Below, one piece after another: positions 8,169-33,502 of a stretch of 64,000 nt of DNA. The notes beneath the pieces are model-generated. The model made no database searches and was not told the DNA's origin. It saw only the letters and a list, made by a program, of their open reading frames with translations. Within the stretch, counting starts at the first letter, position 1. The number at the start of each line of letters is the position of its first letter. This stretch comes from Streptomyces sp. NBC_01451 (GTDB taxonomy: Bacteria; Actinomycetota; Actinomycetes; Streptomycetales; Streptomycetaceae), in the NCBI RefSeq assembly GCF_036227485.1, contig NZ_CP109479.1, positions 6,634,001 to 6,698,000 on the forward strand. Reading direction: 5' to 3'. The position numbers and the translations under genes are program-made.

Positions 8169-10156
8169 TTCACGCTCTCGCTTCCCGTCGGCTCCGGCGT
8201 CGTCAGGTCGATCGCCGGATGGTGGCAGGCCGCCAAGTGGGTCGCTACGCCCAGGAGATCGGGGGCCGTCGTACGGCACACCTCCGTCGACATCGGGCAA
8301 CGGTCCGCGAAGCGGCAGCCCTTGGGGAAGTCGGCGGGGGAGGGGACCGTCCCCTTGATCTGGGTCATGCGGACCGCCGCCGACTCCAGGGACAGCACGC
8401 TGCCCAGCAGGCCCCGGGTGTAGTGGTGGGACGGGGACCCCACCAGGTCCGCCGTGACTCCCGTCTCGACGATCTGGCCGCCGTACATCACGACCACCCG
8501 GTCCGTCACGTCCGCCACCAGGGCCAGGTCGTGCGAGACCAGGATCAGGGCGAAGTCCAGTTCCGCGCGCAGGCGCAGGAGCAGTTCGATGATCTGGGCC
8601 TGGACCGTGACGTCCAGCGCGGTCGTCGGCTCGTCCGCGACGATCAGTTTCGGGTCCCGGGACAGGGCCATCGCGATCAGGACCCGTTGGCGCTGGCCGC
8701 CCGACAGCTCGTGCGGATAGCTGCGGAGGGTGCGGTCGGGGTCGAGGCCGACCAGGCCCAGCAGTTCCTCGGGGGTGCGGTGGCCTCCTCGGCGTACGAC
8801 CTGCTTGAGCTGCGAGCGGATCGTCATCGCCGGGTTCAGGGACGACAGGGCGTCCTGGTAGATCATCGCCATCTCGTGGCCCAGCAGCTTGCGGCGCACG
8901 CGCATCGGCTCCGTGAGCAGGTTCCGCTGGTTGAAGCGGACCTGGCCGGTGACCCGGGCACCCTTCGGCTCCAGGCCCATCACCGTCAGTGCCGTCAGCG
9001 ACTTGCCGCAGCCCGACTCGCCCACCAGGCCCAGGACTTCGCCCGGGTGCACCTCGAAGCTGATGCCGTCGACGATGTCCACGCCCGAGTGGCGCGCGGC
9101 GAAACCGATCGTCAGGTTCTCGACCGCCAGCACCGGTTGGCCCGTGGGGACCGGGCGTGCCCTCGCGCGCAGGCGTGCCGCCGCCTCCGTCAGGCCCGGG
9201 AGGGCCAGGACCTTGCCCGTTCCCGGCTCGGGGGCCTCCAGGGGGTCCTCCTGCTCCCGCACCTTCACGTCCCGGGCCGCCGGGGCCGCCCAGGCGTCCG
9301 AGACGCCCTCCGAGAGGACGTTCAGCGACAGCACGGTGATCAGCATCAGCAGGCCGGGGAACACCGTCGCCCACCAACCGCCGGTCAGGACCATGTTCTT
9401 GCCGTCCGCGATGACGCTTCCCCAGGACGGGTCCGGCGGACGTACGCCCGCGCCGATGAACGACAGCGACGCCTCGAAGACGATCGCCTCGGCCACCTGG
9501 ACCGTGCAGAACACCAGCACGGGTGCCGCGCAGTTGATCGCCACGTGCTTCAGGACAATGTGCGGCGTGCGGGCGCCGATCACTCGTTCCGCCGTCACGT
9601 AGTCCTCGCCGTACTGGTCCAGGACGTTCGCCCGCACCACCCGTGCCACCGGCGGGGTGAACAGGAAGGCGATCGCGCAGATCAGGACCGTGATGCCGCC
9701 GCCGAAGACCGCGACGAGCACGGCGGCCAGCGCGATGCCCGGGAACGCCATCACCACGTCCAGGCAGCGCATCAGCGTCTCGTCGACCGCCTTGCGCGAG
9801 GTCGCCGCGACGGCGCCGATCAGCGCGCCCACCGTCAGGGCGAGCGCGGTGGCGCCGAGGCCGATGGCGAGGGACCAGCGGGCGCCGTGGATCAGCCGGC
9901 TCATGATGTCGCGGCCCAGGCTGTCCTGGCCCATCCAGTGCTCGGCGGAGGGGGCTCCCGTGCCGCCGGTCAGGGGCTGTTGGTCCAGGGGGTCGTCGGG
10001 GGACACGAGAGGGGCGAAGACGGCCACGAACACCACCACCGCCAGGAAGCAGACCGCGACCCGGGAGATGACGGGGAGCCGGCGCCACCCGCGCAGGCGG
10101 ATGCCCGGGCGGGAGAGGAGGGCGGCCAGGCGCCCCCGTTCGAACATCATGAACAT
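8165..10156 (-). CDS. Fused ABC permease-ATPase (DppC-DppD fusion)
   Basis: 663 aa. Residues 1-290 are a DppC-type permease: N-terminal helix about 30-50, the [14 protein letters not shown] motif, and the permease EAA-like loop about 190-205. After an Ala/Pro/charged linker (about 290-340) comes a complete ATPase: Walker A GESGCGKS (379-386), signature LSGGQRQR, Walker [13 protein letters not shown], and the C-terminal oligopeptide extension with [10 protein letters not shown]. In most Dpp/Opp systems these are separate genes. ATG 10156 overlaps the stop of a 12-codon frame (10156-10194); the following gene overlaps its stop by GTGA. It should assemble with the DppB-like permease (10194) and the DppF-like ATPase (7032). 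Confidence 0.93.
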
Positions 10157-10194
10157 CAGGCCGCACCCTTCGTTCGCGTGAACAGCTTGAACAT
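10156..10194 (-). CDS. Possible 12-codon linker ORF between permease genes
   Basis: The DppB-like stop is followed immediately by an overlapping ATG opening MFKLFTRTKGAA, whose TGA in turn overlaps the ATG of the fused gene. Both junctions read GGCCTGATGTTCA, so the short frame looks like a small duplication of the original junction. It could be translated to couple ribosomes between the two large genes; a functional peptide is unlikely. Confidence 0.3.
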   Translation of the reverse strand: MFKLFTRTKGAA

Positions 10195-11153
10195 CAGGCC
10201 GCGTCCCTCAAGCGTGGGTTGACCAGGAGATAGAGGATGTCGATGACCAGGTTCACGACCACGAAGCCGGTCGCCGTCGTCAGGACCACTCCCTGGACGA
10301 CCGCCGGGTCGCCGTTCTTCACGGCGTCGATCATCAGCTTGCCCATGCCGGGCAGCGAGAAGATCGTCTCGATGACGACCGCGCCGCCGAGCAGGTAACC
10401 GACGCGCAGGCCAAGGACCGTGAGCGGGTTGATGAGCGCGTTGCGCAGCACGTTGCGGCCCACCACCACTCTCGGCGGCAGGCCGCTGCCGATCGCCGTA
10501 CGGACGTAGTCCTTGTCCAACTCCTCGACCACCGCCGTACGGACGATGCGCGTGAGCTGCGCGGCGACCGGGAGGGAGAGGGCGAAGGCCGGGAGTGTCA
10601 TCGTCTTCAGCCAGCCGGTGAAGGAGTCGGCCGGGTTGATGTAGCCGCCGGTCGGGAACCAGCCCAGGTCGACGGCCAGGTACTGGATCATCAGCAGCGC
10701 CAGCCAGAAGCCCGGGGCCGCGACTCCCGTGAGCGACACGACCCGGATGATCTGGTCGGGGAGACGGTCCCGGTAGATGGCGGCCGTGACGCCGCCCAGC
10801 AGGGACAGGACCACCGCGATGGCCAGGCCCAGGAAGGTCAGTTGGAGGGTCAGCGGCAGAGCCGTGGTGACCTGGTCGAGCACCGGCGCGCGGGTGAGCG
10901 CGCTGATGCCCATGTCACCGTGGAGCAGGTCGCCGATGAAGTGGAAGTAGCGGACGATGAACGGATCGAGCAGGCCGTTCTGTTCGCGGAAGTCGTGCAG
11001 TTGCTGCGGGGTCGGGTTGGCGCCCTGGAAGAACGCGGAGGCCGGGTCGACGTCCGAGAACCGCATGACGAGGAACACGAACAGCACGATGCCGAGCATC
11101 AGCGGGATGAGCAGGACGATCCTGCGGGCCAGGATTCGGGCGATGGCGACCAC
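10194..11153 (-). CDS. ABC transporter permease (DppB-like)
   Basis: 319 aa, GTG start with GGGAG 6 nt upstream. Six predicted membrane helices; the N-terminal helix is followed by a large loop containing DFREQNGLLDP, characteristic of DppB/OppB permeases, and a BPD_transp_1 domain (about 95-315) with a GLPPRVVVGRNVLRNA coupling loop. It heterodimerises with the permease half of the fused gene to form the translocation channel. First permease gene after the binding protein, 53 nt downstream of it. Confidence 0.94.
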   Translation of the reverse strand: MVAIARILARRIVLLIPLMLGIVLFVFLVMRFSDVDPASAFFQGANPTPQQLHDFREQNGLLDPFIVRYFHFIGDLLHGDMGISALTRAPVLDQVTTALPLTLQLTFLGLAIAVVLSLLGGVTAAIYRDRLPDQIIRVVSLTGVAAPGFWLALLMIQYLAVDLGWFPTGGYINPADSFTGWLKTMTLPAFALSLPVAAQLTRIVRTAVVEELDKDYVRTAIGSGLPPRVVVGRNVLRNALINPLTVLGLRVGYLLGGAVVIETIFSLPGMGKLMIDAVKNGDPAVVQGVVLTTATGFVVVNLVIDILYLLVNPRLRDAA

Positions 11154-11206
11154 GTACGAACTCCCGTACAGCTAGCGGTATCTGGCGGTGGTCAGAGCCG
11201 CGGTGG

Positions 11207-12853
11207 TCACACCCACTTGGCCTGGAGGAGGTTGATGCCCGGGTACGGCTGTGCCCTTATGCCGGTGAGCTTCTTCGGGTCCCAGGCGGTCATCAGCTCG
11301 TTGTGGACGACCGGATAGAGCACGGCCTCCTCGGCGACGACGTCGATGTAGTCCTGGATCATCGTCTTCTTCTTCTCGGGGTCCGGCTCCTGCGTCGCCC
11401 GGTCCATGTCCTTGAAGAGCTGCTTCGCCACGGCGCTGTCGGCCCAACGGGCGTAGCCCATCCAGAGATTCTGCGGGCCGTAGTTGTAGTGCATGATCAG
11501 GTCCGCGTCGAGGCCGAACTGGTTGGGGTTCGAGGCGGCCGACACCACCTGGTAGTCCTGCTTCTGGTCCATCTTCGTGAACACCGCTGTGGTTTCCTGC
11601 GGGTTGAGGGTCGTCTCGACGCCGATCGCGTCCCAGGACGCCTTGATGGTGGGCAGGCAGTCGACGATCCAGCTGACGTTCACCGACAGGATCTCGATCT
11701 TCAGCCCGCTGACCCCGGCCGCCTTGAGGAGCGCCTTCGCCTTGTCCGGGTCGTAGTCGTAGACCGTCTTCGCGCGCCGGTAGCTGGGGTTGGCCTCGTT
11801 GAGGAAGGACGAGGACGGCTTGCCGTGGCCCTTGAGGGCCACCTCCACCATCTTCTCCGTGTCGATGGCGTAGTGCAGGGCCTGGCGGACCCGGATGTCG
11901 TCGAAGGGCTTGTGCTTGGTGTTGAACATCAGGAACAGGTTGTTCATCCCCGCCCCGCCCTGGACGTCCATCCCCCCGCTCTTGAGCTGCTGGATGTTGG
12001 CGTACGGGATGTTGTCGGCGATCTGCGCGCCGGCACTGGACCCCGAGATCTTGGCGACGCGGGGCGCGGCATCCACTATCGTCATCCAGTTCATCTTCTT
12101 GAACGCGGCTTTGCGCGGCCCGTTGTAGGCGGCGAACGCCTCGAAGGTCGTGTTCGACTTCGGGTGGTGCGCCGTCTGCCGGTACGGTCCCGAGCCGATC
12201 GCCTTTCCCTTGATCGCGTCGTCCCAGCCGCCCGGCAGGGAGAAGACGTGCTTCGGCATGATCTTCGCCAGGGTGAGCCGGGAAACCCCTTCGGGGAAGG
12301 GGAACTTCAGCACCAGCTCGACATTCTGCGCGTCGACCTTTTTCACTTCTTTCAGCCAACTGGCGAAAAACCCCTTGGCGAGTGTCTGCGTGTTCGGATC
12401 GAGGATTCGATCGAATACGAAGACCACGTCGTCGGCGGTGACCGGCTTTCCGTCGTGGAAGGTCGCCCCGGCCCGCAGCGTGAACTTCCACGAGGTGCTG
12501 CTGAGATCACCGGGGACCGCTGTGGCGAGCGCGGCGTACGGCTCGCGGGAGATCGGGTCGGTGTCGAGCAGGCCCTCGTAGATGTGGTTGTTGGCCGCCA
12601 TGGAGAAGGCGGAAGCCGTCTGTGTGGGGTCCCAGCTGCCGTCGTTGCCGTAGCCGATCACGGCCGTGAGCGTGCTGTTCGCGCCCCCGGCGCCGCCCCC
12701 GGTGTCGTTCGTCGACTCAGGCCCGGACGAACAGGCCGACAGGGAGGAGGAAATGGCGGCGGCGGCACCCAGCGCGCCGGTGTACTTCAGGAACGACCGG
12801 CGGTGCGGGGCGGTCGATACAGCGGCGGTTACGTCGCGGGTCACGTCGCGCAC
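11207..12853 (-). CDS. ABC transporter solute-binding lipoprotein (SBP_bac_5)
   Basis: 548 aa. GTG start with GGAGG 4 nt upstream. Twin-arginine signal (HRRSFLKYTGALG) ending in lipobox LSAC, so it is probably exported folded by Tat and lipid-anchored. The mature part is a family-5 extracellular binding protein (DppA/OppA type; WKFTLRAGATFHDGKPVTADDV is the classic region). This family binds peptides but also opines, glycans and, in some actinobacteria, sialic acid. First gene of the minus-strand operon; a dyad at 12893-12911 about 45 nt upstream may be the operator of the divergent GntR regulator. Confidence 0.92.
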   Translation of the reverse strand: MRDVTRDVTAAVSTAPHRRSFLKYTGALGAAAAISSSLSACSSGPESTNDTGGGAGGANSTLTAVIGYGNDGSWDPTQTASAFSMAANNHIYEGLLDTDPISREPYAALATAVPGDLSSTSWKFTLRAGATFHDGKPVTADDVVFVFDRILDPNTQTLAKGFFASWLKEVKKVDAQNVELVLKFPFPEGVSRLTLAKIMPKHVFSLPGGWDDAIKGKAIGSGPYRQTAHHPKSNTTFEAFAAYNGPRKAAFKKMNWMTIVDAAPRVAKISGSSAGAQIADNIPYANIQQLKSGGMDVQGGAGMNNLFLMFNTKHKPFDDIRVRQALHYAIDTEKMVEVALKGHGKPSSSFLNEANPSYRRAKTVYDYDPDKAKALLKAAGVSGLKIEILSVNVSWIVDCLPTIKASWDAIGVETTLNPQETTAVFTKMDQKQDYQVVSAASNPNQFGLDADLIMHYNYGPQNLWMGYARWADSAVAKQLFKDMDRATQEPDPEKKKTMIQDYIDVVAEEAVLYPVVHNELMTAWDPKKLTGIRAQPYPGINLLQAKWV

Positions 12854-16060: not shown

Positions 16061-16558
16061 TCACAGGTGCAGGGTCATGACGAGGCGGTCGGCATTCGGC
16101 CCGAAGTAGTCCTTGCGCGGGGCGGATTCAGCCGTGAAGCCGAGTGACCTGTAGAGCTCTATCGCGGCGGTGTTGGCCGGCTCGACCGTCAACAGCACCT
16201 CGTGCACGGCGTCGGCGCGCAGTCGCCGCAGTACCTCCTCCATCAGTTGCCGGCCGTGTCCGCGACCGCGCTGGTCGCGGGTGACGCCGAGGCTCAGTAT
16301 CCAGCCGCGGTCGGGATCCCGTGGCATGCCGACCAGGACGTAACCGTGCAGGCCGTTCTCGCCGCCGTCGAGGACGAGCATGTGGTCGGGGTACAGGTCG
16401 AAGAGCTGGCGAAGCGTGAAGAAGGGGTACGGGCCTTCGGGGAACGCCTCCGCGTCCAGCCGGACCAGCTCGGGCAGATCGGTCTCCTCGACCTGGCGGA
16501 TGCGCGGCGATCCGTTCGTGGCGGGTGTCCGGAAATCGTCTGCCGGAAGAGTGCTCAT
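16061..16558 (-). CDS. GNAT-family N-acetyltransferase
   Basis: 165 aa from ATG 16558, preceded by AGGGGGAAG. Contains the acetyl-CoA loop RDQRGRGHGRQLM (Q/RxxGxG/A) after strand ILSLGV, then VEPANTAAIELYRSLGF, the usual motif B of RimI-like enzymes. Substrate unknown. The first about 25 residues look unstructured. Confidence 0.88.
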   Translation of the reverse strand: MSTLPADDFRTPATNGSPRIRQVEETDLPELVRLDAEAFPEGPYPFFTLRQLFDLYPDHMLVLDGGENGLHGYVLVGMPRDPDRGWILSLGVTRDQRGRGHGRQLMEEVLRRLRADAVHEVLLTVEPANTAAIELYRSLGFTAESAPRKDYFGPNADRLVMTLHL

Positions 16559-16803
16559 GCTTCCCCCTGTGGCGCGAAGTAAAGACACGTTGACACCCGT
16601 ACGGGTGGTACGGGCGGGACGGTGCGTTCTCTGCGGTTCGCCTGCGTTCGGCAGGTGATCGACGGATTCCGACCAGCATTACGCGATCTGATCCGATCGC
16701 TCAAGGCGCATTCAGGTCCAACGTAAGGGCGCAGTCATTTCGACGGTTGTTCACGTTCTGTCAGAGGGGCTCCCCAGTGCCCGGGATGTTGATATCGTGA
16801 ACC

Positions 16804-17655
16804 ATGGACTTGGGAACACCGGGGGAAAAACACGAGCCAGTCGTGCTCGATGAGGTCGTGCTCAATGAGCAGGCTCCTTGGTCGGAATTCGACTCGGACG
16901 CCTACGTCGCCGGCAACTATCACGAGCTGCAGGCCGCGGACGCCGAGATCATCTCGATCATGCGTGATCACTTCGGTGGCTACTTCGCTGAGCATCCCGA
17001 TCCGGTCATCGGCGTCGATGTGGGAGCGGGTGCCAACCTCTACCCCGCGCTCGCCATGCTGCCGTGGTGCAAGGAGATCACGCTCTTCGAGCACGCACCC
17101 CGGAACCTGGCCTATCTGACGAGACAGCTGGAGCCGGAGTCGTACGACAAGAACTGGGACCAGTTCTGGGAAGCTCTGCGCGAGAACCGGGAATACGCCG
17201 AGTTCAAGGGGGACCCGAGGGAAAGGTTCCGCGAGGTCGTCCGGGTCGCGCCCGCCAACATCCTCGCCTCCGACCTCGGTGAACAGCTCCGCGAGAAGCG
17301 GGAGGCCTGGTCGGTCGGGACCATGTTCTTCGTCGCCGAGTCGATGACCACCGAGGAGGAGGAGTTCAGGCGCGGCGTGGCGTGCTTCATGCGTGCGCTC
17401 GCGCCCGGAGCTCCTTTCTTCGCGGCGTTCATGGAACATTCGGAGGGGTATCACGCGGGTGACGCGTTCTTCCCCGCGTGTGACGTGGGCGAATCGGAGG
17501 TGCTGGAAAGCCTGGAGCCGTTCGCCGGGAAGAGCGGAACACTTCACGTCAGGCGGCTCAGGACTCCGGTAAAAGTACGGGCCGGCTATTCGGGCATGAT
17601 CGTCGCCTATGGCCGCCGAAATTCGGATTCGGATGACGATATTCCGGAATGCTAG
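16804..17655 (+). CDS. SCO2525-family SAM-dependent methyltransferase
   Basis: 283 aa. SAM-binding motif I reads VIGVDVGAGANLYPAL (about 68-83); FDSDAYVAGNY near residue 30 and the overall layout resemble the NNMT/PNMT/TEMT group of small-molecule methyltransferases. I recognise the family as SCO2525-like; substrate unknown. Starts an apparent six-gene run with the P-loop protein and other unknowns, with 77 nt to the next gene. The acetyltransferase upstream is divergent, so the promoter lies in 16559-16803. Confidence 0.85.
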   Translation: MDLGTPGEKHEPVVLDEVVLNEQAPWSEFDSDAYVAGNYHELQAADAEIISIMRDHFGGYFAEHPDPVIGVDVGAGANLYPALAMLPWCKEITLFEHAPRNLAYLTRQLEPESYDKNWDQFWEALRENREYAEFKGDPRERFREVVRVAPANILASDLGEQLREKREAWSVGTMFFVAESMTTEEEEFRRGVACFMRALAPGAPFFAAFMEHSEGYHAGDAFFPACDVGESEVLESLEPFAGKSGTLHVRRLRTPVKVRAGYSGMIVAYGRRNSDSDDDIPEC

Positions 17656-17732
17656 ACAGGTAGCAGTACCTGCGAACAACCCGTGGTGACTCCGAACAAA
17701 ACATGGCAGCGCGGCCTGGTGAGGGGCATGGC

Positions 17733-19574
17733 ATGCAGATCAAGCCACGCCAGCATCTGCTGGACGTCTGGCAGGCGGTTGGCCGGCACTCGTTCGACAG
17801 TGGCGGCTGGGCCTGGGGCAAGTGGGGCGGGCAGAGCAGTGTGGCCGATGCCGAGCGGCTGCTCTGCCTGCTCTACCCGGCCACCGAGATCCCGGCGTTC
17901 CGGCTCGACGACCCGGACACGACACAGGACGACGTCCAGAAGGCGCTCCGGCGGGCCGGCGGCCGGCTGGAGATCCCGGTGAACGTGCTGACGGCCACGG
18001 CCGAGTTCATGCGCAACCACACCGGGGACGACAAGAGGCCGACCTTCGCGGGCGGTTACTACTTCCACTCGCGGGACAGCGCCCAGGAGCTCACCCCCGA
18101 ACAGCGTGAACTCGGCGTGGTGGACAGCTATTCGATGTCGGTCACCCTCTGCCTCGCCACCCTCGGCTTCCTCAAGATCTACGAGACGAAGACGCGCCGT
18201 ACCGAGGTGCTGGAACTCATCCAGGAACTCCGGGCGGCCACCAGCACCAGGCTGACGGCGGCCATGGTGAGTCTGCTGCGGTCGTTCACCGTCAACGTCT
18301 TCGACGCGGACTCCTCGCAGGGCAGAACGCTCTCCGAACTCCTGGGCCAGGGACGGCTGTCCCAGCGGATGGTCCTGCAGAAGTTCCAGCGCCGCTTCGA
18401 GGCCCTGCGCGCCATCGTCAGCGAGAGCCTCGTCCTCGGTGTCGACGTCGAGGAAGGCCTCGCGGACCAGAACCAGCTCTTCGAGTGCGGCTGGGCCTGG
18501 AGCCTGGTCAAGGACGCGCCCGAGGTGGAGACCGACGAACCGATCGGCCCCCAGCCGCCCGGCGTCGCCAACGCCGTGCCCTACCTCTACTTCACCGTCG
18601 TCGCCCTCGACGGCATCGCGGACCTGTTCTCCGACCGCACCCTGACCCTGGGCCTGCTCAACGCCGAACAGCAGAAGCTCGCCGAGGCGTTACGACTGCG
18701 CTGGGAGATCACCCAGCAGTACTGGTCGGCCATCGCCCGCTTCGACGCCGACCGCTGGCCCCTGGAGGACATTCCCTGGCGTACGACAGGGCAGAAGCTG
18801 GAGTCCGAGTACTTCTCCCTCTCCGTCGCCGCCATCCTCGTATTCGACCTGGTCCGCCGCCGTGCCACCGACGACGACCTGACCCGCACGGTCGGCATCA
18901 TGGAGCGGCTCGCCGAGCGCGGGCGCATCACCAGCCGGATGACCGGTACCGACAAGGCCGTTGAGCTGCACAATCCCGGGATCGTCCTGCCGCTCCAGGG
19001 CAGTGAACGCATAGGGCCGCCCATGCAGTGGCGGATGAACGACTTCTCCGCCCAACTCCTCAAGCGGACCATCCAGTTGTGCACGCTCTCCCGCAACCTC
19101 GTCTCGCACGACCGGCTGCTGCGGCTGGCCGAGGACATCTTCGGGCACATGTGGAAGCGCCGGATCGGCGACGGCGACGGCGTCGACCTGTGGGACAACG
19201 TGCACGCCGTCTATCCCGGGTCGCCCGCCTCCGACCGCCCGGTGTCCTGGAGCGTCACCGAGCGCGTCACCGAGTGCCTGGTCAGTGCCCACCAGCTGTA
19301 CCGGCAGCCACCGATCCGCAGTGCCGAACTGGGCGTCCTGGCAAGGGCGTTGCTCAGCGAGTCGACCCACCTGCTGGGCAACGAACAGATGGAACCGGCG
19401 CCCGCGTCCGAGGGTAGGCGCGGCATGGACCTCAAGGGCATCGAGGTCAAACTGCGCCGGGCCCGGCAGCTCATCGACGAACAGCCCGGCACCGCCTGCG
19501 CGTTGACCCTCGATGTACTCGGACAGCTCGACGCCCTCGCCCGGGCCCGCGACGCGGCGACCCAGGGGGCGTGA
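17733..19574 (+). CDS. SCO2524-family protein, unknown function
   Basis: 613 aa from ATG 17733 (GAGGGG 5 nt upstream; ATG 17703 is also in frame). Mostly alpha-helical by composition, with no signal peptide or membrane segment. Trp-rich N-terminus (GGWAWGKWGG), and a weakly repeated element later (CGWAWSLVKDAP). No catalytic motif recognised. It has an in-frame TTA leucine codon at 18690-18692 (codon 320). Ends 3 nt before the variant P-loop gene. Assigned to the SCO2524 family by content and gene order from memory. Confidence 0.78.
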   Translation: MQIKPRQHLLDVWQAVGRHSFDSGGWAWGKWGGQSSVADAERLLCLLYPATEIPAFRLDDPDTTQDDVQKALRRAGGRLEIPVNVLTATAEFMRNHTGDDKRPTFAGGYYFHSRDSAQELTPEQRELGVVDSYSMSVTLCLATLGFLKIYETKTRRTEVLELIQELRAATSTRLTAAMVSLLRSFTVNVFDADSSQGRTLSELLGQGRLSQRMVLQKFQRRFEALRAIVSESLVLGVDVEEGLADQNQLFECGWAWSLVKDAPEVETDEPIGPQPPGVANAVPYLYFTVVALDGIADLFSDRTLTLGLLNAEQQKLAEALRLRWEITQQYWSAIARFDADRWPLEDIPWRTTGQKLESEYFSLSVAAILVFDLVRRRATDDDLTRTVGIMERLAERGRITSRMTGTDKAVELHNPGIVLPLQGSERIGPPMQWRMNDFSAQLLKRTIQLCTLSRNLVSHDRLLRLAEDIFGHMWKRRIGDGDGVDLWDNVHAVYPGSPASDRPVSWSVTERVTECLVSAHQLYRQPPIRSAELGVLARALLSESTHLLGNEQMEPAPASEGRRGMDLKGIEVKLRRARQLIDEQPGTACALTLDVLGQLDALARARDAATQGA

Positions 19575-19577
19575 AGC

Positions 19578-20495
19578 ATGCTCGTCTTCGCCGCCTCCGA
19601 CAAGGGAGGCACAGGCCGCTCGGTCACCAGCGCCAATCTCGCCTACCACCGGGCGCTCGCCGGTGACGACGTCTGCTACCTGGACTTCGACTTCGGGTCG
19701 CCCACCGCCGCCGCCGTCTTCGACGTCGACCTGGCGCAGCTAGAGGTCGACGACCGCGGCCTGCACTCCTATCTGGACGGCGGTGTCGGCGAACCGGCCC
19801 GCATCGACGTCTGGGCGGAGACCGAACACCGGGTGCTGACCAACCGGCCACCCGGCTCGGGCCGCCTCGTGCTCATGCCCGGTGACCTGGGCGGCAGCGA
19901 GTTCTCCATCACCGGCGAGAACCTGCGTCGCTGCGTCGACCTGCTGCTGCGGCTCAACGGCGAGTTCGACCTGATAATCGTCGACCTGAGCGCCGGCCGC
20001 AGCTATGCCGTCGAAATGGCCCTCAATGCCACCGCGCAATCGCAGTTACGCGGCATCGACGCCCGCTGGCTGGTCTTCCACCGCTGGACCCGCCAGCATG
20101 TGATGGCCGCCGCCGGGCTGGTCTTCGGCCCGCGCGGCATCGTGGCCGGCGGCATCGCCCGGGGTCACAGTGAGGAGGCGTTGCGCGGCGCCATCCGCTT
20201 CGTACGGGCCGCGGTGCCCGACCCCGAGTCCTCCCTGTGGTCGCAGGTGGCGCCCACCCAGTCGGCGTGGATGCGCGAGTGCGACGCGGACCTCCAGGCG
20301 CTCGCCTCCAACCGCGGCATCGGATACACGCAAGTGCTGGGCTCCGTACCGCTGGAGCCCGTCCTGCAGTGGCGCGAGCAGCTCATCACCGACGAGGACG
20401 TCCTCGACAGCCAGATCGCCAACATGGAGACCTGGCAGGCGATGAGCGACCTCGCCGGACGGCTCACCGACGACAAGTACTGGGGGCAGCCGTGA
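19578..20495 (+). CDS. SCO2523-family variant P-loop (MinD/ParA-like) protein
   Basis: 305 aa. N-terminal deviant Walker A SDKGGTGRSVTSAN (7-20): the signature lysine KGG is kept but the usual GKT/S becomes GRS. Followed by the switch-I-like strand YLDFDFGSPTA and Walker B DLIIVDLS. This is the fold of SIMIBI ATPases that position or assemble partners on membranes and nucleoid. The Lys-to-Arg change may reduce hydrolysis. An in-frame TTA codon lies at 20046-20048 (codon 157). Overlaps the next gene by GTGA. Partner proteins are probably its operon neighbours. Confidence 0.88.
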   Translation: MLVFAASDKGGTGRSVTSANLAYHRALAGDDVCYLDFDFGSPTAAAVFDVDLAQLEVDDRGLHSYLDGGVGEPARIDVWAETEHRVLTNRPPGSGRLVLMPGDLGGSEFSITGENLRRCVDLLLRLNGEFDLIIVDLSAGRSYAVEMALNATAQSQLRGIDARWLVFHRWTRQHVMAAAGLVFGPRGIVAGGIARGHSEEALRGAIRFVRAAVPDPESSLWSQVAPTQSAWMRECDADLQALASNRGIGYTQVLGSVPLEPVLQWREQLITDEDVLDSQIANMETWQAMSDLAGRLTDDKYWGQP

Positions 20496-21448
20496 CCGGC
20501 CCGGTGTTCCGCGAGACCGCGGCCGAACCCCGTACCCAGTCCGTACCGCTGTCCCATCTCTCCCTGGAACTGGGCCACTTGTACATGGAGGACTTCGCGG
20601 CCGGCCCCGAGCGGCTGCGTGAGTACTTCGCCGAGGTACGGGTCTGGGCGGACGCGGCCAGGGCCTCCGCCGCCCGGCGGCTGGGCGGCAAACGGCCCCG
20701 GATCAGCACCTGTTTCCTCATCGACGACTACTTCACCCGCTTCTCCACCCCCGCCGAACTGATCCCGCAGATCCTCGCCGAGTCCGACCGCGCCGGACTC
20801 ACCATCGACTACCTGGCCCGCGAGTCGGGCTGCGCCGTCGCAGACAAGGTGGAGCTGGCCGAGTCCGTGATGCACCGCCTCGTCGAGTCCCCGCCGCCGG
20901 GCACCTACGGCTCCCGCCCGCCGGTCGGCGACACCGGTTGGCTCGCCAACGGACAGCGCACCCCCGGCTCACGCACCGCCATGTCCGAGGTCACCGAGTG
21001 GCAGCCGCCGCACGAGACCGCGGCCCGCGTCCACTCCGTCTTCATGGACGTCGAGTTGTGGTCGGAGCGGAACGGCGGACGCCTGTGGTCCTGCCCGTTC
21101 CTCGCCGCCGTCTGGCAGCTGGCCCGCCTCGGACTGCTGCGCCACTGCGGGGAACCTGTGCTGGTCCCGCGCGCCCGGCCCACCGGTGGCTTCCCCCACG
21201 ACTGGGACGAACTGCCCCCGCTGCTGCAACTCACCGACTCCGCAACGCCGTTCAGCGCCTACCGCACCTGCAGTCTGGTGGGGAACCGGTTCCTGGCCGT
21301 CGAGGACGCGGTCCGGCTCATCCTCGACCAGGTCGACGTGGACACCGGCGCACTGGCCCAGGCCGACGAGCGTTCCGCCCGGGAGGGCGTGCCGGTGCCC
21401 GAGGCGGTCGCCCAGCGTGCCACGTACGTCTTCTACGAGGAGCCCTGA
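20492..21448 (+). CDS. SCO2522-family protein, unknown function
   Basis: 318 aa from GTG 20492 in a GTGA overlap with the P-loop gene. Soluble; conserved-looking regions include SLELGHLYMEDF and RISTCFLIDDYFTRF, the latter a hydrophobic strand ending in a DDY acidic pair that could be a metal or substrate site. No named domain recognised. Translational coupling indicates co-synthesis in fixed ratio with the P-loop protein. Confidence 0.8.
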   Translation: MTGPVFRETAAEPRTQSVPLSHLSLELGHLYMEDFAAGPERLREYFAEVRVWADAARASAARRLGGKRPRISTCFLIDDYFTRFSTPAELIPQILAESDRAGLTIDYLARESGCAVADKVELAESVMHRLVESPPPGTYGSRPPVGDTGWLANGQRTPGSRTAMSEVTEWQPPHETAARVHSVFMDVELWSERNGGRLWSCPFLAAVWQLARLGLLRHCGEPVLVPRARPTGGFPHDWDELPPLLQLTDSATPFSAYRTCSLVGNRFLAVEDAVRLILDQVDVDTGALAQADERSAREGVPVPEAVAQRATYVFYEEP

Positions 21449-21449
21449 C

Positions 21450-22418
21450 ATGAGGCCCCGCGCGGACATCGCGGCCCCCGTCCTCGCCTGCGGCGAGGTG
21501 CGCACCTGTCTGCTGCCCGCCTTCCAGGCGCTGGACAGCCGCACCGCCGCCCAACTGCTCAGGCTGCGCGCCGACGAACGCGTCCGGGTCTCCGAGCGGC
21601 CCAACCTGTACGCGCTCTCGCCCGACGTACTCACCGGCGTCGACTGCCCGCTGCCCACCGCCAACGGCGCCAGGGTCCGGGCCGTCGGTACGGTGGCGGC
21701 CCGCGCCGCGCTCACCGAGGGGCGTGTTCTCCAGACCACGGCCTACTTCCGGATCCCGGCCACGGGACCCGACGTACGCCGGCCGTGGGGGCACTACCTC
21801 GTACGGCCCGGAGTTCTCGAACCCTTCGGGAAGCTGCCCGAAAAGGCGGTCGTGGAAGGCGTTCTGAAAGACAGTCAGCGAGGCGCGCTGGACCTCGGGA
21901 TGATCGCCGAGAGCCTGCTCGCCCAGCTGCTGAGGCACCCGCTGCTCGACCAGAAGGTTCCTTTCAAGTCCCGCCGCACACAACTGCGTTGGGCGGCACT
22001 GCGGGCTCCGGACGGCGCGGGGGCGTCGATCGAGAGTTTCGTGGTGTCCGACGAGGGCCTGCGGACGATGCGGTTGCGGGTGCCGGACGGTACGGAGACG
22101 GCTGCGGTGGCAGGACTCTGCGAGGACTTCGCGCTGCACGACTGGCTGCTCACGACCGTGGTCCGCATGCTCGACCGCAGCCGGACCGGACCGGTGGACG
22201 GGCCGGAGTCGATCCTCGCGCTCCGCCCCGCCGTCGACCACCTGCTGCACGTGTGGATGCCGCGCGCCCGGGTGGACCGGGACCTCGGCCACCTGTGGGA
22301 CGTACTCGAACAGGAGCCGGGTTTCACCCGCCAGTGGCAGACCCTGGTTCAACGCATCCGCGATCAACTGGCCGTCCAGACAATTCCGTTACTCCACAAG
22401 GCGCTGGCCATGAGCTGA
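21450..22418 (+). CDS. SCO2521-family protein, unknown function
   Basis: 322 aa, ATG 1 nt after the previous stop with GAGGAG upstream. Soluble mixed alpha/beta protein, no signal peptide. In-frame TTA codon at 22389-22391, near its end (codon 314). No catalytic motif recognised. Family assignment from gene order and general resemblance. Contains a short Arg/Trp pattern (FKSRRTQLRWAALRAP) in the middle. Confidence 0.78.
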   Translation: MRPRADIAAPVLACGEVRTCLLPAFQALDSRTAAQLLRLRADERVRVSERPNLYALSPDVLTGVDCPLPTANGARVRAVGTVAARAALTEGRVLQTTAYFRIPATGPDVRRPWGHYLVRPGVLEPFGKLPEKAVVEGVLKDSQRGALDLGMIAESLLAQLLRHPLLDQKVPFKSRRTQLRWAALRAPDGAGASIESFVVSDEGLRTMRLRVPDGTETAAVAGLCEDFALHDWLLTTVVRMLDRSRTGPVDGPESILALRPAVDHLLHVWMPRARVDRDLGHLWDVLEQEPGFTRQWQTLVQRIRDQLAVQTIPLLHKALAMS

Positions 22419-22455
22419 CGCCGAATCTTCGAAACACCCGACGGGGGAGGTTGAG

Positions 22456-23511
22456 GTGAACGGAGCACAACAGGCACAACAGGCACAGCAAGCGCTACGA
22501 GCACAACAGGCACAGCAAGCCCAGCAAGCACAGTTGCAGGCCGTGGCAGGGCGACAGGAGCGCAACTCCAAGCTGCTGCGCAAGACACTGATCACGTCTC
22601 TGGTGTCCGCGAGCACCTACGTACTCACCAACGTGCTCAACCGGAACGCGGACGAGGTCTGGAAGCTGACCGTGACCGTCGTCATCGGCGGCGCGGCCCT
22701 GATAGTCCAGTACCTGATGGACTTCGAGGAGCGGCTCAACTCGATGGAGCAGAGCCTCTCCGCGCACCACGGGGAGCTGCGGACCGCGGTCGAGAAGAGC
22801 TTCGCGGGGATCAACGAGGCGACCGAACTGTTCAGTCAGGTGGACCGTTCGGTGCTGCGCTCCGACGGGGTGACCCGACTGGCGCGTGCCTACACGCAGT
22901 TGGGGCACCAGGAGTCGGAACTGGTGAAGACCTTCTCCCAGGAGGAGATCGGCCGTCTCGCCACCCAGATGGAGAGCCTCAGCTCCGGCAGCGTGACCTG
23001 CATGGGCGAGAACAACGACTGGCTGATCGACCTCACCACCTGTGTCGGGACCTCTATCGACGCCACCAGCACGGACGTCGACCGGCAGTTCTGGTACAGC
23101 GAGGCCGCGAGCCGCTATCTGAAGGCGCAGGAGGACGCGTTCCGCAACCGGAACGTGACGGTGCGGCGGCTGTTCCTCGTACGGACCCAGGCGGAGGTCA
23201 CCGAGGAGCTGGAACGGCTCTGCCAGAGCCACCGGGACCTGGGAATCCAGACGCGCATCGCCGTCCGGGAGTCGCTGGCCCCGAGTGCCAGGCTCCGGAT
23301 GACGAACGACTTCATCGTCTTCGACGGTGAACTCTGCTACGAGACGACGCCGGACATGGACCAGAAGCCGGCCGAGACCAGCCTCAAGACGGACAAGGAG
23401 CACATAGAGGAGCGGGTCAACCGGTTCAACGTCATCTGGGACGCCACGGAACCCGTCAACGCGCCCGGCGCGGCCCCCGGTGCCGCCAGCGCGGGTTCGG
23501 GCTCCGCGTAG
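22456..23511 (+). CDS. Membrane-anchored protein with Gln-rich N-terminus and possible degenerate PLD-like domain
   Basis: 351 aa from GTG 22456 (GGGGGAGG upstream). Residues 1-25 are AQQ repeats; two hydrophobic helices follow (about 38-55 and 65-83), then a coiled-coil-like segment (about 84-150). The C-terminal domain (about 170-330) has the spacing of an inactive phospholipase-D-like module: surface helix RYLKAQEDAFRNRNVTVRRLFLV, then QTRIAVRES and NDFIVFDGELCYE, with no HKD motif. The fold assignment is tentative. Last gene of the SCO2525-2521-like run, 37 nt after its neighbour; it may tether the soluble partners to the membrane. Confidence 0.72.
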   Translation: MNGAQQAQQAQQALRAQQAQQAQQAQLQAVAGRQERNSKLLRKTLITSLVSASTYVLTNVLNRNADEVWKLTVTVVIGGAALIVQYLMDFEERLNSMEQSLSAHHGELRTAVEKSFAGINEATELFSQVDRSVLRSDGVTRLARAYTQLGHQESELVKTFSQEEIGRLATQMESLSSGSVTCMGENNDWLIDLTTCVGTSIDATSTDVDRQFWYSEAASRYLKAQEDAFRNRNVTVRRLFLVRTQAEVTEELERLCQSHRDLGIQTRIAVRESLAPSARLRMTNDFIVFDGELCYETTPDMDQKPAETSLKTDKEHIEERVNRFNVIWDATEPVNAPGAAPGAASAGSGSA

Positions 23512-23554
23512 GGGTTTGTTGTCCGTACGGCTGACGGCGGTGCCGCTGTCAGCC

Positions 23555-23631
23555 CAGCGGCCAGCGGCCAGCGGCCAGCGGCCAGCGGCCAGCGGCCAAC
23601 GCCCAACGCCCAACGGCCAACGGCCAGCGGT
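23555..23631 (+). repeat. Heptamer tandem repeat, 11 units
   Basis: Eleven consecutive 7-bp units: six exact CAGCGGC (23555-23596), then CAACGCC twice, CAACGGC twice and CAGCGGT. Lies in the 267-nt gap between convergent genes. Being a heptamer it cycles through all frames. Confidence 0.95.
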
Positions 23632-23768
23632 CACGGGGGCACGCGCGCCGTGGTGGGTGAACCGGGCTCGCACGCCGACGTCCTGGCCGAACAGTCGAGT
23701 GGCTGAACGGCCGGGCCGGAAGGCGTGCATACCGTTGTGGGTCGGCGCCGGAGTCTCGACCCCGAACG

Positions 23769-31847: not shown

Positions 31848-32594
31848 ATGAGCCTGTTCCGTGACGACGGTGTCGTGCTGCGTACCCAGAAGCTGGGTGA
31901 GGCCGACCGGATCATCACGCTGCTCACGCGCGGTCACGGGCGGGTACGGGCCGTGGCGCGGGGGGTGCGGCGGACCAAGTCCAAGTTCGGGGCCCGACTC
32001 GAACCGTTCTCCCACGTCGACGTGCAGTTCTTCTCGCGGGGGAGCGACCTGGTCGGGCGCGGGCTGCCGCTCTGCACGCAGAGCGAGACCATCGCTCCGT
32101 ACGGTGGCGGGATCGTCACCGACTACGCCCGGTACACCGCCGGGACGGCCATGCTGGAGACGGCGGAACGGTTCACCGACCACGAGGGCGAGCCCGCCGT
32201 GCAGCAGTATCTGTTGCTGGTCGGCGCGCTGCGCACCCTCGCCCGCGCCGAGCACGAACCCCATCTCATCCTCGACGCGTTCCTCCTGCGCTCCCTTGCC
32301 GTCAACGGCTACGCGCCCACCTTCAGCGACTGCGCGCGATGCGGGATGGCCGGCCCGAACCGGTTCTTCTCGGTGGCCGCCGGGGGCTCCGTCTGCGTCG
32401 ACTGCCGGGTGTCCGGCAGCGTCGTACCCTCTCCTCAGGCCCTCGAACTGCTCGGCGCGCTGCTGACGGGCGACTGGGCGACCGCGGACGCGTGTGAGCC
32501 GCGTCACGTCAGGGAGGGGAGCGGACTGGTGTCCGCCTACCTGCACTGGCACCTGGAGCGCGGACTGCGCTCCCTGCGCTACGTAGAGAAGTAA
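31848..32594 (+). CDS. recO: DNA repair protein RecO
   Basis: 248 aa. N-terminal OB fold ([39 protein letters not shown], about 4-42), helical middle ([17 protein letters not shown] region) and a zinc site CARCG...CVDC (about 163-185). RecO helps load RecA onto SSB-coated ssDNA in the RecFOR pathway. Upstream of uppS in the same direction, as in other streptomycetes; 59 nt gap. Confidence 0.95.
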
Positions 32595-32653: not shown

Positions 32654-33502
32654 ATGGCCGTACGCGGAATCCTGGGGAGCCGCCGCCGCGAGTACAGGAC
32701 GCCGGAACCGCACCCCTCCGGCGCCACCGCGCCGAAGCTCCCCGGCGAGCTCGTACCGAACCATGTGGCCTGTGTCATGGACGGCAACGGGCGGTGGGCC
32801 AAGGAGCGCGGGCTCCCGCGCACGGAAGGGCACAAGGTCGGCGAGGGCGTCGTCCTCGACGTCCTCAAGGGATGCCTGGAACTCGGCGTCAAGAATCTCT
32901 CCCTGTACGCCTTCTCCACCGAGAACTGGAAGCGGTCGCCGGAAGAGGTCCGCTTCCTCATGAACTTCAACCGTGACGTCATCCGGCGCCGACGCGACGA
33001 GATGAACGAACTCGGTATCCGGATTCGCTGGGTCGGGCGTATGCCCAAGATGTGGAAGTCCGTCGTACAGGAACTCCAGGTCGCCCAGGAGCAGACCAGG
33101 AACAACGACGCCATGACGCTCTACTTCTGCGTCAATTACGGCGGCCGGGCCGAACTCGCCGACGCGGCGAAGGCGATGGCGCGCGATGTCGCCGCCGGAA
33201 AGCTCGACCCCGACAAGGTCTCCGAGAAGACCATCCAGAAGTACCTCTACTACCCGGACATGCCGGACGTCGACCTTTTCCTTCGCCCCAGTGGTGAACA
33301 GCGCACCTCCAACTACCTGATCTGGCAGTCGAGTTATGCCGAGATGGTGTTCCAGGACGTGCTCTGGCCCGACTTCGACCGGCGCGACCTGTGGCGCGCC
33401 TGCGTCGAATTCGCCTCCCGCGACCGGCGGTTCGGCGGCGCGGTCCCGAATGAGCAACTGCTCGAAATGCAGCGGGACATGAAGGGCAACCCGGGGGCCT
33501 GA
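32654..33502 (+). CDS. uppS: Isoprenyl (polyprenyl diphosphate) synthase, cis type
   Basis: 282 aa. Conserved start of the catalytic domain [20 protein letters not shown] with the catalytic Asp, [16 protein letters not shown], and the C-terminal [19 protein letters not shown] that binds diphosphate. Condenses isopentenyl diphosphate in cis to make undecaprenyl or shorter polyprenyl diphosphate for cell-wall lipid carrier. Cytosolic, membrane-associated. ATG follows AAGGAGACGAG. Followed by hairpins at 33505-33520 and 33623-33660. Confidence 0.95.

Follow-up and report, generated by a model that had tools for sequence, protein, structure and literature searches.

What does an operon do when most of its proteins belong to named families to which no function is attached? 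This question is raised by a locus at positions 16804–23511 of a 64,000-nucleotide stretch of Streptomyces sp. NBC_01451 (contig NZ_CP109479.1, positions 6,634,001 to 6,698,000), which was analysed as a whole and is referred to here as the window. The locus contains six co-directional genes on the + strand. Four of them, SCO2524–SCO2523–SCO2522–SCO2521, are the fixed core of a genuine conserved unit. Our answer to the question is tentative and is held at somewhat less than an even chance: the unit would encode a membrane-associated regulatory complex of mycelial actinomycetes, mostly single-copy and chromosomal, with a non-canonical MinD-like switch. The features of the locus are as follows.

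16804..17655, + strand: SCO2525-family S-adenosylmethionine (SAM)-dependent methyltransferase of the NNMT/PNMT/TEMT type, accessory (NF040568, 301 bits, cut-off 240; PF01234, 2.8e-12).
17733..19574 (longer open reading frame (ORF) from 17703), + strand: SCO2524-family protein, predicted helical toroid, core (NF040567, 913 bits; AlphaFold2; Foldseek).
19578..20495, + strand: SCO2523-family MinD/ParA-like protein with P-loop KGGTGRS, core (NF040564, 488 bits; alignment; motif census).
20492..21448, + strand: SCO2522-family protein, core, with a GTGA overlap with SCO2523 (NF040566, 460 bits).
21450..22418, + strand: SCO2521-family protein, core (NF040565, 424 bits).
22456..23511, start uncertain, + strand: membrane protein with one or two N-terminal hydrophobic helices and a probable DUF6879/PLD-like domain without HxK, exchangeable partner (PF21806, 28.7 bits, cut-off 23.9; profile comparison; hydropathy scan).
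16061..16558, − strand: divergent GNAT acetyltransferase, RimI-like, seventh member (PF00583, 4.4e-17; TIGR01575, 62.0 bits, below the cut-off of 86.4).
16559..16803, no strand: divergent intergenic region with a conserved patch at about 16669–16702 and a putative promoter role (alignment of 76 relatives).

The curated NCBIfam cut-offs were exceeded by five of the six proteins (the SCO2525, SCO2524, SCO2523, SCO2522 and SCO2521 families), and the NCBIfam search gave no match for the membrane protein encoded by the sixth gene. The intergenic distances after SCO2525 were 77 (or 47), 3, −4, 1 and 37 nucleotides. The first value depends on the start of SCO2524, with ATG 17733 leaving 77 nucleotides and the upstream ATG 17703 leaving 47; ATG 17733 was preferred because residue 11 of the longer ORF is where the NCBIfam profile starts. 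A sequence-only reading of this DNA had listed six genes with GTGA overlaps and gaps of 1 to 77 nucleotides. The six ORFs are real, a single GTGA overlap is present (at the SCO2523–SCO2522 junction), and the divergent GNAT gene, absent from that list, belongs to the unit as a seventh member. Comparison of the window with four relatives gave ratios of nonsynonymous to synonymous substitution (dN/dS) of 0.11–0.39 for the first five genes and 0.20–0.62 for the membrane gene, so all six are under purifying selection and the membrane gene evolves faster than the core. SCO2523 and SCO2524 are each present as a single copy in the window genome.

The distribution of the unit was followed in two sets of loci. 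In a class sample of 393 genomes, SCO2524 was present in 38 genomes from 7 of 122 genera; the 37 further loci fetched and the window make up 38 core loci. A named scan gave 460 pattern matches, of which 433 were relatives; the 80 best of these 433 were kept as the named loci, and are therefore close kin. ORFs were called in all loci by a GC-based script, which shortened some starts. The order and strand of SCO2524–SCO2523–SCO2522–SCO2521 were identical in 38/38 class-sample loci, window included, and were kept in 80/80 named loci. The full order, with GNAT on the − strand followed by the methyltransferase, the core and the membrane gene on the + strand, was found in 76/80 named loci, the exceptions being L096, L115, L143 (a short locus) and L149. 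The −4 nucleotide junction between SCO2523 and SCO2522 was likewise kept in 76/80. In L115 (Streptomyces diastatochromogenes DSM 40608), about 2.4 kb (9903 to 12324) separates SCO2523 from SCO2522, and the membrane gene was not found in the fetched stretch. SCO2521 was detected in 8 of the 396 genomes of a phylum sample, every one from the same class. A quick tree built from the concatenated core, unrooted and with a long-branch warning for L063, L065 and L066, tracked the sampled families with three changes for four groups, which is the minimum. The sequence-only reading had treated the six ORFs as one unit and had set against this the prospect of scattered genes without co-occurrence; the gene-order comparison found one conserved unit.

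The P-loop of SCO2523 carries the first molecular oddity of the core. Residues K9, R14, D36, D38 and D136 were invariant in 25/25 aligned rows; we take K9 to be the signature lysine, D36 and D38 to be the switch I DxD and D136 to be the Walker B aspartate. Arginine, never lysine, occupied the catalytic P-loop position in all 117 SCO2523 sequences read, which came from 38/38 class-sample loci and 79/80 named relatives (one was called too short). SCO2523 also matched the CbiA profile with 26.3 bits, against a cut-off of 25.4. By profile and by its retained residues SCO2523 is a MinD/ParA relative, a variant P-loop ATPase as had been predicted, and it would be expected to bind nucleoside triphosphate (NTP) with slow or no hydrolysis. 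Its score for AAA_KGGVGR (NF047398) was 37.9 bits, below the 90-bit cut-off, and its profile scored 51.0 against the NF047398 protein of the window genome and 52.9 against ParA. Given such similar scores with ordinary ParA and Mrp, a special relationship to the KGGVGR family was dropped as unsupported. That NF047398 protein (L177, G000:C1:6839808-6840422), the only one above the cut-off in the window genome and the other arginine P-loop protein seen there, is an FxSxx-COOH system protein with a KGGTGRT P-loop domain and an NB-ARC-like region.

For SCO2524, AlphaFold2 gave a model with a mean pLDDT of 84.0 and a pTM of 0.84; the protein is predicted to be a helical toroid from the Foldseek matches of this model, which stay below significance. 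Thirteen of the top 14 Foldseek matches were sugar epimerases or glycoside hydrolases, which presumably share the alpha/alpha-barrel fold. Kinship with GlcNAc 2-epimerase or GH76 enzymes was considered; the fold hinted at it, and profiles gave it no support. In PDB sequence searches, the SCO2524 and membrane-protein profiles gave weak matches only, that of SCO2524 being to YacP (about 69 residues, E 0.0061), and the SCO2522 and SCO2521 profiles had no match up to E 10. Against a viral structure library, SCO2524 reached a probability of at most 0.13 among the 50 matches listed. The AlphaFold2 model of SCO2522 was of low confidence (mean pLDDT 63.5), and a fold search from it gave no match with E ≤ 0.001. 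SCO2522 and SCO2521 matched no known family outside their own NCBIfam families. Profile comparisons of SCO2522 with SCO2521, and of the membrane protein with SCO2521, found the members of each pair unrelated. The family, PDB-sequence and fold searches agree with the earlier statement that the set matches no known pathway.

The membrane gene was present in 32/38 class-sample loci (tblastn, above 40 bits), including L041 and L043, where the ORF script had overlooked it. L067 and L070 carry it between SCO2523 and SCO2522, and in L068 it is inverted and upstream of SCO2524. It was absent from six of the 38 loci (L053, L063–L066 and L074). In the first five of these, SCO2521 is followed directly by a convergent gene for an unrelated protein that has about two hydrophobic helices. 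The five loci form one clade on the core tree, on which the partner state requires two changes; two of the rows are from family f16 and three from family f4, and the replacement could reflect transfer between families. Pfam and NCBIfam gave no convincing match for the replacement protein, and its profile was unrelated to that of SCO2524. A potassium-channel-like pore was rejected for it, as Ion_trans_2 proteins ranked only 154, 158 and 227 of 253.

A hydropathy scan of the membrane protein found one or two N-terminal hydrophobic helices, in agreement with the membrane anchor proposed from sequence, followed by a predicted cytosolic DUF6879/PLD-like domain. The window protein passed the gathering cut-off of DUF6879 (PF21806; 28.7 against 23.9 bits), and 18 of the 20 members scanned matched it in the C-terminal domain (E ≤ 1). 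When the membrane protein was compared with a PLD cardiolipin synthase of the window genome, the synthase ranked 1 of 402 (33.65 over 136 columns), and the runner-up of this comparison with 400 decoys scored 23.84 over 20 columns. Decoys for this and for the toroid-enzyme and Ion_trans_2 comparisons came from the fetched loci and included repeated orthologues. In the HxKx4D alignment H is replaced by T and K by D; the last D is retained and invariant in the membrane protein. From the profile match and the lost HxK, we therefore consider that the domain is probably PLD-like without PLD chemistry and held at the membrane. The start of the gene is GTG 22456 or GTG 22543. The stretch 22466–22545 consists of CAACAGGCACAG-like repeats, which code for a Gln/Ala-rich N-terminus and therefore leave the true start codon uncertain. 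Directly 3' of the gene (23553–23632), imperfect 7-nucleotide tandem repeats, CAGCGGC-like, were spotted by eye. The four other DUF6879 genes of the window genome (L003–L006, outside the window) all adjoin an XRE-type regulator gene, an arrangement shared with WhiJ-like loci, the regulator type being assigned by reading the sequence and not by family search. AbaA and IosA, which belong to the BldB network, were dropped as relatives of the membrane protein, since AbaA is described as antisigma-like and IosA as having a mass of 15 kDa and a pI of 10.3.

The methyltransferase accompanies the core without being part of it. Its NNMT/PNMT/TEMT type had been recognised from sequence and was supported by the PF01234 match. 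Members of the SCO2525 family above the cut-off occurred in 26/393 class genomes, and 26/26 of these carried the core, so that methyltransferase presence is nested within core presence. It was missing from 12/38 core genomes, its presence on the core tree required four changes, and in L071 it lies on a different contig of the same genome. Cousins below the cut-off occurred in seven more genomes, all without the core. A GNAT relative was detected by BLAST clustering in the fetched flanks of 29/38 class-sample loci, and a GNAT gene lies near the core in 78/80 named loci. The patch at 16669–16702, between the GNAT and methyltransferase genes, was conserved among relatives in an alignment of 76 and by eye is promoter-like for the GNAT gene; a sigma-70 consensus scan of this intergenic region found no site. 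In other Streptomyces (L171:4801-9846, L169, L170 and L172–L176), a PAS-GGDEF-EAL protein forms an in-frame fusion with an aminotransferase-fold domain, whose class I/II identity was taken from Pfam for L171 only. A methyltransferase cousin was called after the fusion gene in 7/8 loci and was overlooked by the ORF caller in L170. The fusion is a possible amine-signal synthase linked to cyclic-di-GMP turnover.

As for the published record, the abstract of Gehring et al. 2004 reportedly ascribes to the putative methyltransferase an effect on the growth and development of colonies. In later papers, SCO2525 is cited as HrdB-controlled with a morphogenetic role, as necessary for normal growth, and as tied to the effects of SAM on antibiotic production. 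A further source groups sco2521–sco2526 into one operon, which belongs to the HupS regulon and is salt-insensitive. These papers all draw on Gehring et al. 2004. The view that the operon had no described function was therefore too strong. The literature searched did not mention KGGVGR, DUF6879 or these NCBIfam family names. The SCO2525 mutant is a long-cited case of a growth and development effect in a model Streptomyces without a mechanism, and the operon supplies SCO2525 with partners, a fixed core and an accessory order in which the methyltransferase occurs only alongside the core.

In the regulatory complex that we favour, SCO2524 (as a toroid), SCO2523 (as a switch with arginine for the catalytic lysine), SCO2522 and SCO2521 would form a constant body. 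The exchangeable membrane protein would recruit this body to the membrane or read it out there; it would mostly be a transmembrane-anchored PLD-like/DUF6879-like domain without the catalytic pair, and in five loci the unrelated two-helix protein. As accessories, the methyltransferase and the GNAT enzyme would act on a ligand or on one of the proteins of the complex, and this modification may tune growth and development. The membrane-recruited complex of the sequence-only reading stands in this form, as an inference.

Several findings weigh against this proposal. Its complex, localisation and biochemistry are inferred from sequence, and family and PDB-sequence searches assigned no chemistry to SCO2522 and SCO2521. 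The core did not occur in 355/393 class genomes or in many Streptomyces, so it is not required for development in general. The cited phenotype exists for the methyltransferase only, a non-core gene. The best Foldseek match of SCO2524 had an E value of 0.035 with a probability of 0.97, TM-scores were below 0.5, and 11 GlcNAc-2-epimerase/GH76-family sequences ranked 41–254 of 311 against its profile; we therefore claim a toroid shape for SCO2524 and not an enzyme family. The second PLD half of the cardiolipin synthase alone ranked 193 of 402 against the membrane protein.

A more specific version of the complex is improbable in our judgement. In it, SCO2524 would be a toroid receptor binding an amine ligand whose methylation and acetylation are set by the accessory enzymes; the ligand would lock the NTP form of SCO2523 on SCO2522–SCO2521, and the exchangeable dead-PLD or other adaptors would signal to hyphal growth and sporulation. 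If true, this would be a new kind of membrane-docked signalling machine.

Of the rival explanations, a biosynthetic or ligand-modifying cluster survives best, and we regard it as unlikely though worth serious attention. The core would make or bind a small molecule containing an amine or a sugar, the methyltransferase and GNAT enzyme would decorate it, and the membrane protein would export or sense it. Methyltransferases of the NNMT/PNMT/TEMT type and GNAT enzymes both suit small amines, the epimerases and glycoside hydrolases dominate the fold matches of SCO2524, and the methyltransferase cousins adjoin the possible amine-signal synthase. However, the methyltransferase is dispensed with in nearly a third of the core genomes, the link of SCO2524 to epimerases and hydrolases had no sequence support, and no conserved carrier, ligase, oxidoreductase or transporter was seen next to the core by BLAST clustering.

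A conflict or abortive-infection system is considerably less probable. Its effector would be the membrane protein, and the K-to-R P-loop protein would act as a licensing switch, on the pattern of the NTP-dependent conflict systems known from multicellular bacteria. Kaur et al. 2020 (PMC7159879) report inactive MinD/ParA-like domains in NTP-dependent conflict and peptide-processing systems. The KGGTGRT and NB-ARC/FxSxx features of L177, the patchy distribution of the unit, its exchangeable membrane partner and the faster evolution of the membrane gene would also suit such a role. Yet SCO2523 fell far short of the KGGVGR cut-off and was no nearer to a KGGVGR protein than to ordinary ParA. A variable recognition domain, an NTPase threshold pair and a known effector were all absent, neither membrane partner carried a catalytic or pore signature, and vWA-MoxR-VMAP, NB-ARC/TPR and peptide-maturation partners had no NCBIfam or Pfam match among the six operon proteins. 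PADLOC gave only two matches, neither of them convincing: PDC-M28B (7.6e-05, over 38 residues of the P-loop) and LeoBC (0.013). No relative was found when the SCO2523 profile was searched against viral contigs, SCO2523 against phages, or SCO2524 against a plasmid collection. Furthermore, recO and uppS, identified by sequence reading and not by family search, are encoded on the same strand no more than about 7 kb downstream in 47/80 named loci and 10/37 others (in the window at 31848–32591 and 32654–33463). The locus looks like an old chromosomal site that has been lost many times, and not like a mobile defence island; these searches and the setting of many loci near recO–uppS weaken the conflict or phage role suggested earlier.

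We give a similarly low weight to a ParA/MinD-type positioning system, which would use the membrane protein as an anchor and place cargo, for example the machinery of the tip or septum, along hyphae. The MinD/ParA fold, the retained signature lysine and both switch aspartates, the membrane-anchored partner and the mycelial hosts are consistent with it. However, the catalytic lysine needed for the ATPase cycle is replaced in 117/117 sequences, and the families used revealed no ParB/MinE-like partner. Natural deviants do exist, such as the RGGVGTT P-loop of BcsQ (PMC9178275). Finally, chance neighbours with independent roles are hardly credible: the methyltransferase, GNAT and membrane genes are each missing somewhere and the membrane gene relocates (L067, L070, L068), but the genes co-occur, with core order kept in 38/38 and 80/80 loci, the methyltransferase nested in 26/26 and the overlap kept in 76/80.

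Compared with known systems, SCO2523 shares its fold family, signature lysine, DxD and Walker B aspartate with the deviant Walker A ATPases of the MinD/ParA group, which have a catalytic lysine (KGGxxK[S/T]) where SCO2523 has arginine. The inactive MinD/ParA-like domains of conflict systems and AAA_KGGVGR proteins have arginine at this same position, but SCO2523 is a stand-alone protein whose operon is without the NB-ARC, TPR, VMAP or peptide-maturation partners of FxSxx/VMAP conflict systems. Sugar epimerases and glycoside hydrolases, presumably of the alpha/alpha-barrel fold, lead the Foldseek matches of the SCO2524 model, none of which reached E 0.001. The C-terminal domain of the membrane protein is similar both to DUF6879 proteins of WhiJ-like loci and to the PLD superfamily; unlike the former it is membrane-anchored and has no adjoining regulator gene, and unlike active PLD enzymes it has no HxK pair. 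The K-to-R P-loop and this probable HxK-less PLD domain at the membrane are two precise molecular oddities of a single operon. The closest precedent is the NCBIfam series SCO2521–SCO2525 (NF040564–NF040568), of which five of the six operon genes are members and whose names show that curators had recognised the set. Since these families are named and SCO2525 is cited as a growth and development gene, the parts of the system were already known. The NCBIfam entries give no function, and as seen here they cover neither the unit of seven genes nor the sixth protein nor the exchange of membrane partners; what is new is the system-level picture of a unit that is real and under-described.

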